Shown piece by piece: positions 17,271 to 32,071 of a stretch of DNA of 39,857 nt. The first letter of the stretch is position 1; each line of letters opens with the position of its first letter. This DNA is from a virus, in IMG/VR virus record IMGVR_UViG_3300027710_000057, positions 1 to 39,857 of that record; one strand, 5' to 3'. Below the pieces are notes generated by a model that was not told the DNA's origin, ran no database searches, and saw only the letters and a program-made list of their open reading frames with translations. The translations under genes were made by a program, and so were the position numbers.

Positions 17271-17825
17271 TCAAGAAGCCTTTGATAGATAGTACTTATA
17301 TTCTGAAACTAGCCTAGCCTTCTTGCGTGAGTTACATTTTCTACATAAAGGCTGAATATTTCCAATAGAGTGATTTCCTCCACGGGATATGGGAATAATA
17401 TGATCCATCGTAATGTCATCTTTACTACCACAGAAAGCACAGGCAGATGCATATAAGGCTTTTAACTCACGCTCTGAGATAACGAAGGTTTGGCTATTGA
17501 GGATAGCCTTGCGTTTAAGATGAGATGTTCTCACATTATTTTGATACTTTAGTTTATTATTTTGATTCCAAACCTTGGCTCGCTCAGTACGCTTTTCACG
17601 AGTTGCTTGGCGATAGAGTTGTTTCTTTAAAAGATAGTCCTTATCTTCTTTTTGTTTTTGCCATGACTTCTTGTTAGACTTCTTAGTATACTTGCGGACT
17701 TTATCTGGATTAGCCTTCTGCCAGGAACGAGTATAAGCCTTATGGCAAGGTTTACACTTTGAGGCAGTTCCATAGAAGTTATCTAGTTGTAACTCTTCTT
17801 TACATTTTGTACAGGTTTTAGTCAT
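17271..17825 (-). CDS. HNH endonuclease with N-terminal zinc ribbon
   Basis: 184 residues. N-terminal CTKCKEELQLDNFYG then SKCKPCHKAYTRSWQ is a CxxC...CxxC ribbon common in free-standing phage HNH proteins, followed by a very basic linker. C-terminal CAFCGSKDD, MDHIIPISRGGNHSIGNIQP and LCRKCNSRK give the full HNH core (D-H, N, and two CxxC zinc pairs), so it should be catalytically intact. Probably a selfish homing-type or nicking endonuclease. The ATG overlaps the preceding micro-gene by 8 bases. Confidence 0.9.
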   Translation of the reverse strand: MTKTCTKCKEELQLDNFYGTASKCKPCHKAYTRSWQKANPDKVRKYTKKSNKKSWQKQKEDKDYLLKKQLYRQATREKRTERAKVWNQNNKLKYQNNVRTSHLKRKAILNSQTFVISERELKALYASACAFCGSKDDITMDHIIPISRGGNHSIGNIQPLCRKCNSRKKARLVSEYKYYLSKAS

Positions 17826-17916
17826 AGTCTACAATTGAATAGAAAATATCATCTACGGCTTGATCGGATAGGTCTGGAAACTTAGTATTAATCTCACAGA
17901 TTGCACACTCACACAT
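17818..17916 (-). CDS. 32-residue cysteine micro-protein
   Basis: MCECAICEINTKFPDLSDQA has C-x-C-x2-C at residues 2-7. Strong AAAGGAG Shine-Dalgarno 8 bases upstream, and an 8-base overlap with the HNH gene. It follows a structured 5' leader, and may serve as a leader peptide for the HNH gene. Confidence 0.55.
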   Translation of the reverse strand: MCECAICEINTKFPDLSDQAVDDIFYSIVDYD

Positions 17917-17928
17917 GGTAACTCCTTT

Positions 17929-18007
17929 AATATTAGAAGCCTTTTTTCGTCATGCTCAGGACTAGATAAAAGATGGGAATGGCTTCCCATGTAGGTGACT
18001 AGCCTAC
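17929..18007 (-). other. Structured 5' leader with two stable hairpins
   Basis: Between promoter 18014-18042 and the ribosome site, the minus-strand transcript would carry GTAGG-loop-CCTAC (17991-18007) and ATGGGAA-GCCA-TTCCCAT (17973-17990), then CCTGAGCATGACGAAAAAAG, the partial form of the repeated CCTGAGCA element. Stems are perfect over 5 and 7 bp. This could control the HNH or micro-gene translation, but no known riboswitch class is recognised. Confidence 0.5.
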
Positions 18008-18013
18008 TTTACA

Positions 18014-18042
18014 AGTATAGCGATTTTGGCGGGGGAAGTCAA
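18014..18042 (-). promoter_or_regulatory. Consensus sigma70 promoter for HNH operon
   Basis: Minus strand TTGACT (18037-18042), 17 bases, TATACT (18014-18019). It reads toward the HNH and MSMEG_6728-like genes. Confidence 0.85.
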
Positions 18043-18259
18043 GATAGGTTCGTAATCCCTAGTATAACAAATAACCCTAGTAAGGACATATCCCAGATAT
18101 GCCAGATAGCCCCATAGCCAGAACAACCCCAGAGTTATTTATCCCCTGGTTTTATACCCTATAACACCTTAGAATGAATCATCTTAAGGTATTGCAGACA
18201 CTTAAAGTAAATGGCGTTTTACTTTAAAATAGGGAAATGTTTTAAAGTTTTGGACATAG

Positions 18260-18280
18260 TTATCCACAGGTTTATCCACA
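18260..18280 (+). promoter_or_regulatory. Pair of DnaA boxes
   Basis: Two perfect TTATCCACA boxes at 18260-18268 and 18272-18280, 12 bases apart (start to start), same orientation. The consensus is the E. coli and actinobacterial R box. Confidence 0.75.
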
Positions 18281-18400
18281 GATAAATCTTACTGTTATTT
18301 TTTAGATATGGTTTACACCTGGTTTGATAATGTCTAATGGGTTACTATTCATTTATAGATGGGCGTTCGTAATGTCTGCTGGCCCAAACCCCCTACCACA

Positions 18401-18480
18401 CAAACCTTCATATGTCAAACCTTCATATCCCGATAGCGGATTATACCCCCAAACCTCATATTTGTCAAACCTTTGTATCC
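18401..18480 (+). repeat. Iteron-like CAAACCTTCATAT repeats
   Basis: Copies begin at 18401, 18416, 18450 and 18466 (CAAACCTTCATATGT, CAAACCTTCATATCC, CAAACCTCATATTTG, CAAACCTTTGTATCC), spaced 15, 34 and 16 bases. A fifth, CAAACCTTTATAG, is at 18723. Two pairs of near-tandem copies suggest protein-binding iterons. Confidence 0.7.
18440..18468 (-). promoter_or_regulatory. Consensus promoter inside origin candidate
   Basis: Minus strand TTGACA (18463-18468), 17 bases, TATAAT (18440-18445). The iteron-like repeats overlap its -35 and spacer, so whatever binds them could repress it. No gene lies close downstream; it might make a primer or regulatory RNA. Confidence 0.75.
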
Positions 18481-18718
18481 AAAAAACCCTAGACAAAATG
18501 TAGCAAAATGTCCAGTATTTGTAGGAAAAATGATTAAAAGGTTTGGATAATATTCAAAAACCAGGGAAAAAGGTTTGATATCGTAATGTCTTATTTGGGT
18601 GTAGTTATACTAGGGGGATTTGGTATGCTTTGCTGGATCCCCCGTGATTTTTCCCCTGGATCGTAATGTCTGATAGGCCTGACAGTGATGCTGGGTGCGG
18701 GGATCGTAAAGGAAAGAC

Positions 18719-18747
18719 TTGACAAACCTTTATAGTTGGAGTATACT
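18719..18747 (+). promoter_or_regulatory. Plus-strand consensus promoter
   Basis: TTGACA (18719-18724), 17 bases, TATACT (18742-18747). It points into the 3' ends of minus-strand genes and has no plus-strand gene after it, so it should make a noncoding or antisense RNA. Confidence 0.75.
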
Positions 18748-18753
18748 GTGCCC

Positions 18754-18812
18754 CGAATATGGGGATATAAGGTTTGGGATCGTAATGTCCAAAAGCCCCG
18801 TGAATTTTTTTC
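18754..18812 (+). ncRNA. Candidate small RNA
   Basis: Starts at the predicted site of the plus promoter: CCCCGAATATGGGG forms a 4-bp stem, a second G-rich to CCCC pairing is possible across 18763-18799, and a run of seven T's (18805-18811) could terminate it near 18812. Size about 60 bases. Prediction only. Confidence 0.35.
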
Positions 18813-18845
18813 GAGGGTTCGTAATAGGGCCTTTTGGTGGTTCGA

Positions 18846-19121
18846 CTATTTCTTGAACCCTGCTGCGTCAAACATCTCATCTAATGAGTCATAGGCTACT
18901 TTATCATCAATGCCTAGAGCCGCAATCAGGAAGTTGAATGTCTCGTTAATGTACGCCTCAGAAGCGGGGGTAGAGATAACGATACTTTCATTAATAAAAT
19001 AAGCAAGAGGAAGACCCAAATCGTTATAGCCAACAAACTCCTTTAGGTCATCCAAGTCTCTATAATCAATCCAGAACTCAGCAAGGATCTCACACATATC
19101 ATCAAATGGTGTCATCTTCAT
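18846..19121 (-). CDS. Hypothetical acidic protein
   Basis: 91 residues, MKMTPFDDMCEILAEFWIDY; acidic and helical with a hydrophobic middle (LGLPLAYFINESIVISTPAS). Last gene of a three-gene operon. The start overlaps the upstream gene by 20 bases; MTPFDD at 19115 is an alternative. No family recognised. Confidence 0.65.
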   Translation of the reverse strand: MKMTPFDDMCEILAEFWIDYRDLDDLKEFVGYNDLGLPLAYFINESIVISTPASEAYINETFNFLIAALGIDDKVAYDSLDEMFDAAGFKK

Positions 19122-22989: not shown

Positions 22990-24009
22990 CTATGCGAGTT
23001 GCATTACATTTTTTACAACTTTGAGCAAACGATTCTTCTCTGCGTTAATTGCAGGGTCAAATCCACTTGCGCTTGCGAGGATAGATTCGTTATTGCCACC
23101 ACGAGCAGAACGATACCAGTCAAGGCGCTCTGTAAGTGCATTGAACGCACCCCACGCATTACCAGCAATCATGCCGTTAAACTCGCCTGTGTAGATATCG
23201 TTAATCATATCCACTTTGGTTTCCCACTTCTTGTTGCTACCCTTAGCGTCCTTCTCAGGCTTTGGGTAAGCAGCGAGAATGATATCATTGAAAGACTTAG
23301 CAGAGACCTCAGTCTCAATCATAGCCTTAGCCATTTTATCAAACTCGTCCATGTACTGATTAGCAAGACCAAGAGTCTCACGAGCAATCTGTACCTTGCC
23401 GTTAGCGGTCTGTGTGTGGCGAATCTTGAATGATTGCTTAGGGCCATTCTTCTTACGACCTACGCCATTGAGCGCAAGGTTAAGAGTATTAGCGCACACA
23501 ACACGAACAGGTGTAATGCTTGCTTGAATAGCGATTGAGCCATCATGTGAGGTGTTAATGAGAAGATAAGTCTTTACCTTATCTGCAACACCGCTAGGGT
23601 CAAGAACAGTCTCACGCTCTAGTGCTAATGCACCGAACACAACACGCCCACCCTTGATAGAGCCAGCGGTTTCCCAACGACCACCGCCGTCAAGAATGTT
23701 ATCACCGAATGAAAATAGGTCTTCATTCTGCAATACATGGTATCGCTCACCTACAACACCAAGAACATCTGTCTGTGTGTTATCGGTAGGATTGGTACGC
23801 AAAACATATTGGTATGCCTTGTCGCTTGTTAAGTGTGCAGGGATAGGCATATCTTCAAGACGAACATTCCAACCATTGAGGTTTGCAGCCTCTAACATTT
23901 CTGCGGTGGTTTTTTCTTCTGTGAATACAGTACCCAATCCATGCCATGCGGGTTCACGGAAAGAAGCAAAAGATGTTTTTCCGTTTTGTGTTTCTAGGTC
24001 ATGTGCCAT
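22990..24009 (-). CDS. DUF932 phage/plasmid-like protein
   Basis: 339 residues, near the usual family length. EPAWHGLGTVF near the start is a signature of the DUF932 (TIGR03299-type) family; VLGVVGERYHVLQNEDLFSF, GRVVFGALAL and ASITPVRVVCANTLNLAL follow in the expected order, with KIRHTQTANGKVQIARETLG later. These proteins are encoded by many phages and plasmids and are often supposed to modulate DNA transactions, but the function is not established. The operon has a type I promoter, a CRP-type site and DnaA boxes upstream. Confidence 0.92.
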   Translation of the reverse strand: MAHDLETQNGKTSFASFREPAWHGLGTVFTEEKTTAEMLEAANLNGWNVRLEDMPIPAHLTSDKAYQYVLRTNPTDNTQTDVLGVVGERYHVLQNEDLFSFGDNILDGGGRWETAGSIKGGRVVFGALALERETVLDPSGVADKVKTYLLINTSHDGSIAIQASITPVRVVCANTLNLALNGVGRKKNGPKQSFKIRHTQTANGKVQIARETLGLANQYMDEFDKMAKAMIETEVSAKSFNDIILAAYPKPEKDAKGSNKKWETKVDMINDIYTGEFNGMIAGNAWGAFNALTERLDWYRSARGGNNESILASASGFDPAINAEKNRLLKVVKNVMQLA

Positions 24010-24127: not shown

Positions 24128-24151
24128 GGATCTTAAACGGCGTGTCGTAAC

Positions 24152-24172
24152 TTATCCACAGAGTTATCCACA
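24152..24172 (+). promoter_or_regulatory. Pair of DnaA boxes
   Basis: Two perfect TTATCCACA boxes at 24152-24160 and 24164-24172, 12 bases apart, upstream of the DUF932 promoter. Confidence 0.7.
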
Positions 24173-24182
24173 GGCGGGTCGA

Positions 24183-24217
24183 AAAAAGTAGTGAGCCGTT
24201 TACATGGACAATGCTCA
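24183..24217 (-). terminator. Terminator of the 24269 gene
   Basis: Minus strand TGAGC-loop-GCTCA followed after 4 bases by TTTTTT then CGACC. One member of the seven-copy hairpin family. Confidence 0.6.
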
Positions 24218-28279: not shown

Positions 28280-28312
28280 AAATCGGACATTCGGAATGTG
28301 ATAAATCTCACA
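28280..28312. promoter_or_regulatory. GACATT box plus perfect CRP/GlxR-type palindrome
   Basis: AAATCGGACATTCGG at 28280-28294 abuts TGTGATAAATCTCACA at 28297-28312. The palindrome's centre lies about 74 bases upstream of the predicted start for the 28205 operon. Confidence 0.65.
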
Positions 28313-28321
28313 CGTAAAGCC

Positions 28322-28351
28322 TGTGGATAACTTAATGGTGGTTGTGGATAA
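28322..28351 (-). promoter_or_regulatory. Pair of DnaA boxes
   Basis: TGTGGATAA at 28322-28330 and 28343-28351 (inverse of TTATCCACA), 21 bases apart, the only pair not spaced by 12. Confidence 0.7.
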
Positions 28352-28361
28352 CTGCGGGTCG

Positions 28362-28393
28362 AAAAAAATTTGAACAGTTTTACATCGTGTTCA
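28362..28393 (-). terminator. Terminator with covarying stem
   Basis: Minus strand TGAACA-loop-TGTTCA then AATTTTTTTCGACC. The G-C pair of other copies (GAGCA/TGCTC) is replaced by A-T here on both arms, so base pairing is maintained. Confidence 0.7.
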
Positions 28394-29640: not shown

Positions 29641-29705
29641 TCAATTTGCTACTTTATTTAATTGTTATAGTATTAATACTAGCAGATAAACCTTAAAAAG
29701 TCAAA

Positions 29706-29764
29706 CCGACACGCCGTAAATTGGGTGTGATTAAAATCATACTTAATGCAGATCACGACACGCC
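29706..29764. promoter_or_regulatory. Second CRP-type site flanked by CGACACGCC boxes
   Basis: TGTGATTAAAATCATA (29726-29741, near-perfect) lies between CGACACGCCGT at 29707 and CGACACGCC at 29756. CGACACGCC also occurs at 24138 (inverse), 30887 and 32024. Confidence 0.5.
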
Positions 29765-29781
29765 CGAACCCGTCGAAAAAA

Positions 29782-30795: not shown

Positions 30796-30838
30796 AAATC
30801 GGACATTTAGGAAATAAGGGATTGTGATATAGACCACA
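30796..30838. promoter_or_regulatory. GACATT box plus near-perfect CRP-type site
   Basis: AAATCGGACATTTAGG at 30796-30811 and TGTGATATAGACCACA at 30823-30838 (one mismatch). Centre about 76 bases upstream of the predicted start. Confidence 0.55.
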
Positions 30839-30925
30839 TTTTCATGTCTGACTGGTCAAATTGTGGTCATTTCCAAAGATTTTTTGCGACACGCCGTATT
30901 TGAACTTGACAAGATCGAACGTTCG

Positions 30926-30950
30926 AAAAAAATATGCACCGAAGTGCATA
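30926..30950 (-). terminator. Strong terminator with UUCG tetraloop
   Basis: Minus strand TATGCAC-TTCG-GTGCATA, perfect 7-bp stem with a UUCG loop, then TTTTTTT and CGAA. Starts 5 bases after the stop of the gene at 30956. Confidence 0.9.
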
Positions 30951-31845: not shown

Positions 31846-31868
31846 AATGGACTTGGACATTATGGGCG

Positions 31869-31903
31869 AAATCGGACATTTGGGATATGTGATTAAACTC
31901 ACA
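31869..31903. promoter_or_regulatory. GACATT box plus perfect CRP/GlxR-type palindrome
   Basis: AAATCGGACATTTGGG (31869-31884) followed by TGTGATTAAACTCACA (31888-31903). Centre about 78 bases upstream of the leftward start. Confidence 0.65.
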
Positions 31904-31912
31904 TTTCTAAGT

Positions 31913-31964
31913 ATGACTGGTCATGGGTTGGGTAGCCTAAGCAGGGTAGCCTATGACTGGTCAT
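31913..31964. repeat. Twin ATGACTGGTCAT inverted repeats with tandem core
   Basis: ATGAC-TG-GTCAT at 31913-31924 and 31953-31964; between them GGGTAGCCTAAGCA and GGGTAGCCTATGA are direct repeats. TGACTGGTCA also occurs at 30849. Looks like operator DNA. Confidence 0.6.
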
Positions 31965-31984
31965 GTGGATAACCCTGTGGATAA
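31964..31984 (-). promoter_or_regulatory. Pair of DnaA boxes
   Basis: TGTGGATAA at 31964-31972 and 31976-31984, 12 bases apart, in the divergent control region. Confidence 0.7.
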
Positions 31985-32005
31985 CTTTTTGTCGACCAAA
32001 ATTTT

Positions 32006-32021
32006 TGTGGTCTAAATCACA
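32006..32021. promoter_or_regulatory. CRP/GlxR-type palindrome (near-perfect) for rightward promoter
   Basis: TGTGGTCTAAATCACA, one mismatch. Centre about 64 bases upstream of the rightward start near 32078, close to the class I CRP position. Confidence 0.55.
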
Positions 32022-32042
32022 TCCGACACGCCGTGTTTGGAC

Positions 32043-32071
32043 TTGACTTTTTGACATTTCTATGCTATACT
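32043..32071 (+). promoter_or_regulatory. Rightward consensus promoter
   Basis: TTGACT (32043-32048), 17 bases, TGC-TATACT (-10 at 32066-32071). It drives the plus-strand operon beginning at 32120. Confidence 0.85.

Follow-up and report, generated by a model that had tools for sequence, protein, structure and literature searches.

A candidate replication origin with tandem DnaA boxes and DnaA-trios in a gene-free region of a large phage group

A gene-free gap in the viral DNA analysed here is predicted, with a probability of roughly 0.6, to be where a lytic-type actinobacterial phage with a large genome (~110-120 kb) starts its replication; host DnaA would open this origin and transcription would activate it. 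The analysed DNA, called the window, was a 39,857-base virus record from IMG/VR, and the record consisted of the window only. No close match to the window was found among isolated phages. To our knowledge, most large lytic phages have no mapped origin. If this reading is true, an abundant phage group has an origin that is delimited to 200 bp and whose parts can be tested, and a host oriC-type unwinding module is used by a virus. Relatives that naturally have or lack the DnaA boxes would then make it possible to ask about the contribution of DnaA and about the effect of the trio element by itself.

The gene-free region

A sequence-only reading of the window had described positions 18050-18840 as gene-free. 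The stretch was free of genes, and the ORF lists gave it a slightly greater extent, 17917-18845. A 91-aa ORF at 18605-18880 looks spurious. The gap, its borders and its features were as follows.

17818-17916, leftward: 32-aa ORF, left border of the gap (ORF list)
17917-18845, no strand: gene-free gap with the candidate origin (ORF lists; flanking ORFs both leftward)
18014-18042, minus strand: separate leftward promoter, 10/12, for the 32-aa ORF and the HNH gene (promoter score)
18260-18268, plus strand: DnaA box 1, TTATCCACA (exact match)
18272-18280, plus strand: DnaA box 2, TTATCCACA, 12 nt from box 1 (exact match)
18286-18303, minus strand: predicted AT-rich unwinding element of six NAN DnaA-trios, 5'-AAA-AAA-TAA-CAG-TAA-GAT-3', with a 5-nt spacer to box 2
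18367-18376, minus strand: conserved GACATTACGA box between the promoter and the unwinding element (repeat search, alignment of relatives)
18401-18478, minus strand: AAGGTTTG iteron-like repeats (CAAACC on the plus strand at 18401, 18416, 18450 and 18466; another at 18385)
18440-18468, minus strand: perfect sigma-70 promoter TTGACA-17-TATAAT, 12/12, directed through the trios and DnaA boxes
18581-18789, plus strand: three further TCGTAATGTC copies at 18581, 18661 and 18780 (repeat search)
18613-18643, plus strand: terminator-like stem of 13 pairs, then a T run (sequence scan)
18719-18747, plus strand: rightward promoter TTGACA-17-TATACT, 11/12, with no gene before the antisense end of 18846-19121
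18846-19121, leftward: 91-aa ORF, right border of the gap (ORF list)

The motifs named by the earlier reading were recovered. Its two perfect DnaA boxes were exact tandem copies of TTATCCACA at 18260 and 18272. Its four iteron-like copies of CAAACCTT were found as CAAACC(TT) at 18401, 18416, 18450 and 18466, with a fifth at 18385; the gap contained seven copies of AAGGTTTG, whereas its frequency in the window predicts 0.35. The CAAACCTT repeats may be initiator-binding iterons or repeats of a promoter or operator. The other repeat that it had listed, TCGTAATGTC, had five exact copies, four in the gap (18367, 18581, 18661, 18780) and one at 17408, where 1.8 were expected even with one mismatch. 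The copy at 17408-17417 falls within the HNH endonuclease gene, outside the gap. The leftward promoter, which had been placed with its -35 under an iteron, ran from 18468 to 18440 at 12/12, and its -35 overlapped the 18466 repeat. The rightward promoter (TTGACA-17-TATACT, 11/12, 18719-18747) was likewise present. The leftward promoter lay 188 nt upstream of the box pair, and a sequence test found no leftward terminator between it and the trios and boxes. A perfect, operator-like inverted repeat, TTAAAGTAAA/TTTACTTTAA, was seen past the DnaA boxes at 18202-18227.

DnaA boxes and the unwinding element

Exact TTATCCACA occurred eight times in the window, in pairs only (18260/18272, 24152/24164, 28322/28343 and 31964/31976), whereas 0.3-0.7 perfect boxes per 40 kb were expected. 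The four pairs occupied four intergenic sites, three of which the earlier reading had missed.

24152-24172, plus strand: second tandem pair, upstream of the DUF932 gene, without the trio element (exact match, trio count)
28322-28351, minus strand: third pair, 21-nt spacing, without the trio element (exact match, trio count)
31964-31984, minus strand: fourth tandem pair, in a module between leftward and rightward genes, without the trio element (exact match, trio count)

Because TTATCCACA pairs stood at four sites of the window, the box pair alone does not identify the 18260/18272 site. Recognition of an origin by tandem boxes alone was rejected, as they occurred four times in the window and in many unrelated viral contigs. 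The pair at 31964-31984 adjoins a rightward promoter, TTGACT-17-TATACT, at 32043. A recurring intergenic module was also observed at 24130-24190, 28280-28370, 29690-29780, 30800-30930 and 31860-32040. Its common blocks were AAATCGGACATT, CGACACGCCG, a TGTGAT-like half site and TTTTTTCGA, with a DnaA-box pair at three places, and it resembles a promoter/operator cassette that recurs in the early region.

The sequence next to the boxes was compared with the basal unwinding system (BUS) of bacterial oriC, which has one or two DnaA boxes, a spacer of at most 16 nt and at least three DnaA-trios; published trios have a middle A and read 5'-TAG-3' towards the boxes (PMC8287927, PMC10316083, PMC8235120). 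Sites were assessed for tandem boxes, with at most two mismatches in the better one, and for at least three NAN trios within 16 nt on the correct strand (PMC8287927). At 18260/18272, both boxes were exact TTATCCACA, and six trios began 5 nt from the box, the minus strand reading 5'-AAA-AAA-TAA-CAG-TAA-GAT-TTATC-TGTGGATAA. A GC-rich BUS spacer was absent, the spacer of the window being TTATC. The published search program takes spacer length as a criterion, not content (PMC8287927), and a GC-rich spacer is therefore a common, not a required, feature of a BUS.

The helical instability of the element was at the 97th percentile of the window (40-60-nt windows). NAN trios are a degenerate motif, and 6% of composition-shuffled sequences reached five of them. 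At least five consecutive trios were found on the unwinding side in 39 of the 40 relatives with the exact pair, and on the opposite side of the box pair in none of these 40. The other three pairs of the window had two trios each. Unselected viral contigs supplied a further 108 tandem pairs, and on the unwinding side all of these had fewer than five. Among the sites examined, the predicted full BUS-like module is particular to the 18260/18272 pair and its phage group.

Phage group and hosts

A search with the DUF932 gene (22990-24009) found hundreds of relatives among metagenomic viral contigs of up to 119 kb. The samples of these relatives were presumably mainly freshwater. One relative, G001 (118,981 bases), carried genes for a DnaB-like helicase, a DNA polymerase (PHROG 405), a UvsX-like recombinase, a ribonucleotide reductase, a portal and a terminase. 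The nearest isolate matches of its polymerase were the DnaE-like polymerases of Streptomyces phages of Stanwilliamsviridae (BillNye, 54.6%). WhiB genes were found in 13 of 14 relatives and, among 14 control genomes, in Corynebacterium only, so the hosts are very probably Actinomycetota.

The DNA-binding domain IV of DnaA (Bac_DnaA_C) had no match in 10 long relatives, while 10 of the 14 control genomes matched. A phage-encoded DnaA was rejected on this result.

Conservation in relatives

The 91-aa gene to the right of the gap was used as an anchor, and the region was extracted from 59 distinct loci. The element was located in 55 of these, and the promoter was scored in the same 55. Read leftward, the order was promoter TTGACA-17-TATAAT, AAGGTTTG repeats, (G)ATTACGA, in most relatives CTCCAC repeats, AT-rich element and boxes. 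In relatives, the AT-rich element ended in ATCAGTAA(G/C)AT and was followed by TGTGGATAAACCTGTGGATAACT. The leftward promoter scored 12/12 in 45 of the 55 and 11/12 in the remaining 10; shuffled segments mostly scored 8-9. Its distance to the box pair was ~165-230 nt, and the AAGGTTTG repeats often made a second tandem promoter. The opposing promoter was present in some relatives only. The (G)ATTACGA box and the element TAT-CAG-TAA-GAT were found in nearly all of the ~55 relatives. In most relatives CTCCAC was repeated two or three times at 10-nt intervals; the window and its nearest relatives have lost these repeats. The same tandem pair was present in 38-40 of the 55, and the element then lay 2-5 nt from the tandem TGTGGATAA boxes.

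Viral contigs were also scanned, with the pattern given both as element-plus-box and as element alone. This gave 100 distinct sites, which lay partly within contigs already in the set of relatives. The promoter reached 11-12/12 at 86 of the sites, an ATTACG box was present at 89, and CTCCAC was repeated at least twice at 82. In genome contigs, the element-plus-box pattern occurred in only two, one of them with the whole phage module. Capture of a host oriC was rejected, since a pattern in only two genome contigs does not indicate that the region was recently copied from a sequenced host. The contig with the complete phage module (L220, CANGYR010000020.1), which is assigned to a Chitinophagaceae genome, is probably viral and mis-binned.

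The boxes were lost, and the promoter, ATTACGA and the CAGTAA element were kept, in ~11 of the 55 relatives (L018, L019, L043, L048, L051, L056, L058, L063, L065, L067 and L068). Five more had one weakened or displaced box (L030, L061, L071, L083 and L085), and a 111-kb relative had a single exact box across its whole contig. The box-less relatives mean that DnaA is not strictly required and is accessory, or that the boxes of their hosts are divergent. The CAGTAA element may have a further, DnaA-independent role.

In many relatives, the contig ended within ~2 kb downstream of the 91-aa gene, at scattered positions and seemingly more often than elsewhere (L012, L018, L021, L026, L038, L041, L046, L053, L061, L080-L082 and L085). 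A genome terminus at the gap was rejected; these ends were spread over 2 kb past the region, with no single point.

Promoters that persist without boxes would also be expected if the gap were a transcription control region, a possible but doubtful explanation. A strong leftward early promoter would then be combined with AAGGTTTG operators and DnaA boxes, through which a repressor or DnaA tunes the leftward genes, and the four box pairs would form a four-site DnaA regulon. All four pairs are intergenic or promoter-like, the pair near DUF932 occurs in either orientation among relatives, and the repeats overlap the -35. However, the downstream leftward genes of the window have their own promoter at 18042, and the 18468 promoter is therefore not needed for the 32-aa ORF and the HNH gene. 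Several relatives have another promoter directly past the boxes, and control of transcription leaves unexplained why the trio element is in register at the 18260/18272 pair only.

The number of boxes bears on a second explanation, which is very unlikely: the phage would titrate host DnaA, stopping host initiation or freeing the replication machinery, and the gap would be one such sink. Boxes were ~40-fold enriched in relatives near the arm that bears the candidate origin (390 in 1.35 Mb). This enrichment and the eight perfect boxes in 40 kb exceed expectation; however, eight boxes are few by general knowledge of titration loci, and the conserved promoter, ATTACGA box and trios are left unexplained. 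It is also very unlikely that the perfect promoter yields a non-coding RNA which is conserved for its own function: no ORF lies behind this promoter and the conserved CTCCAC repeats could pair with GGAGG of the same transcript, but a structured RNA was rejected because folding energy was not in excess (mean z +0.39, 52 sequences), alifold gave no consensus structure and Rfam no match, and the conserved blocks resemble DNA sites. As the transcript is unstructured, conservation acts on DNA.

Proposed mechanism

The reading of the gap as an origin opened by host DnaA predicts the following course. Host RNA polymerase would start at the near-invariant perfect-consensus promoter. Its leftward course would take it across the iteron repeats, the ATTACGA box and the AT-rich element, and this transcription would activate or prime the origin. 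Host DnaA would bind the tandem boxes just past the AT-rich element. It would then load onto the adjacent trios (TAT-CAG-TAA-GAT in relatives, TAA-CAG-TAA-GAT here) and melt the duplex. The opened duplex would admit the phage DnaB-like helicase and DnaE-like polymerase, and replication would start at the gap.

The earlier claim that the gap is the strongest origin candidate of the window held in part. It is the best supported reading, given the conservation in relatives and the trios at this pair alone; GC skew is silent and a minority of relatives is box-less. The clustering of boxes in one ~13-kb non-structural arm of a 119-kb genome also speaks for it. No inflection of GC skew was found at 18 kb in the window, and in G001 the skew followed gene direction, which makes it uninformative. 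The sequence patterns suggest that these freshwater actinobacterial viruses probably borrow host DnaA. The chances are about even that a large family of lytic-type actinobacterial phages recruits host DnaA to a composite origin, an oriC-type module under an invariant perfect promoter, and that relatives with the trio element but no boxes show escape from DnaA.

Comparison with known systems

In the open-access literature, no described origin of the freshwater actinobacterial phage group was found. The module resembles the BUS of B. subtilis, H. pylori and T. maritima in its tandem boxes, short spacer and at least three middle-A trios of the same polarity. The CAG-TAA of the element resembles the H. 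pylori trios TAG-TAA-CAG-TAG-TAG (PMC8287927, PMC10316083, PMC8235120). Unlike a BUS, it occurs in a phage without a dnaA gene, its spacer is AT-rich, an invariant strong promoter lies ahead of it, and some relatives have trios without boxes.

In ori-lambda, an iteron origin with two opposing promoters, transcriptional activation is needed and host DnaA has an influence (PMC3985674). The gap is similar in its iteron-like repeats, its promoter through the origin and its opposing promoter. By sequence, a 12/12 promoter 188 nt upstream would transcribe through the candidate origin. Ori-lambda has its own O initiator, whereas here the DnaA boxes and trios are the predicted direct unwinding module.

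Phages of Stanwilliamsviridae, which have a related DNA polymerase, are the third comparison. In these Streptomyces phages the pair lies in gene-free DNA of 1.4-1.5 kb. Faust and Annadreamy have an identical CTGTGGATAAACCTGTGGATAAC pair, and in Faust and its kin the exact 24-nt box pair recurs within 1.5 kb of non-coding sequence. Wakanda and BillNye have a near-identical CTGTGGATAAACCTGTGGATAAC pair with an inverted neighbour. Unlike in the window, the Stanwilliamsviridae pair has an inverted box or half-box beside it, with a third box ~255 nt away; the CAGTAA trio element and the CTCCAC blocks were not seen in these phages. A similar box pair was found in Microbacterium phage Big4 and a degenerate one in a T5-like Salmonella phage. 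With pairs in Streptomyces phages, Big4 and the T5-like Salmonella phage, the use of tandem DnaA boxes in large phages extends beyond the freshwater family. The candidate origin is a variant of known origin types and forms no separate category.
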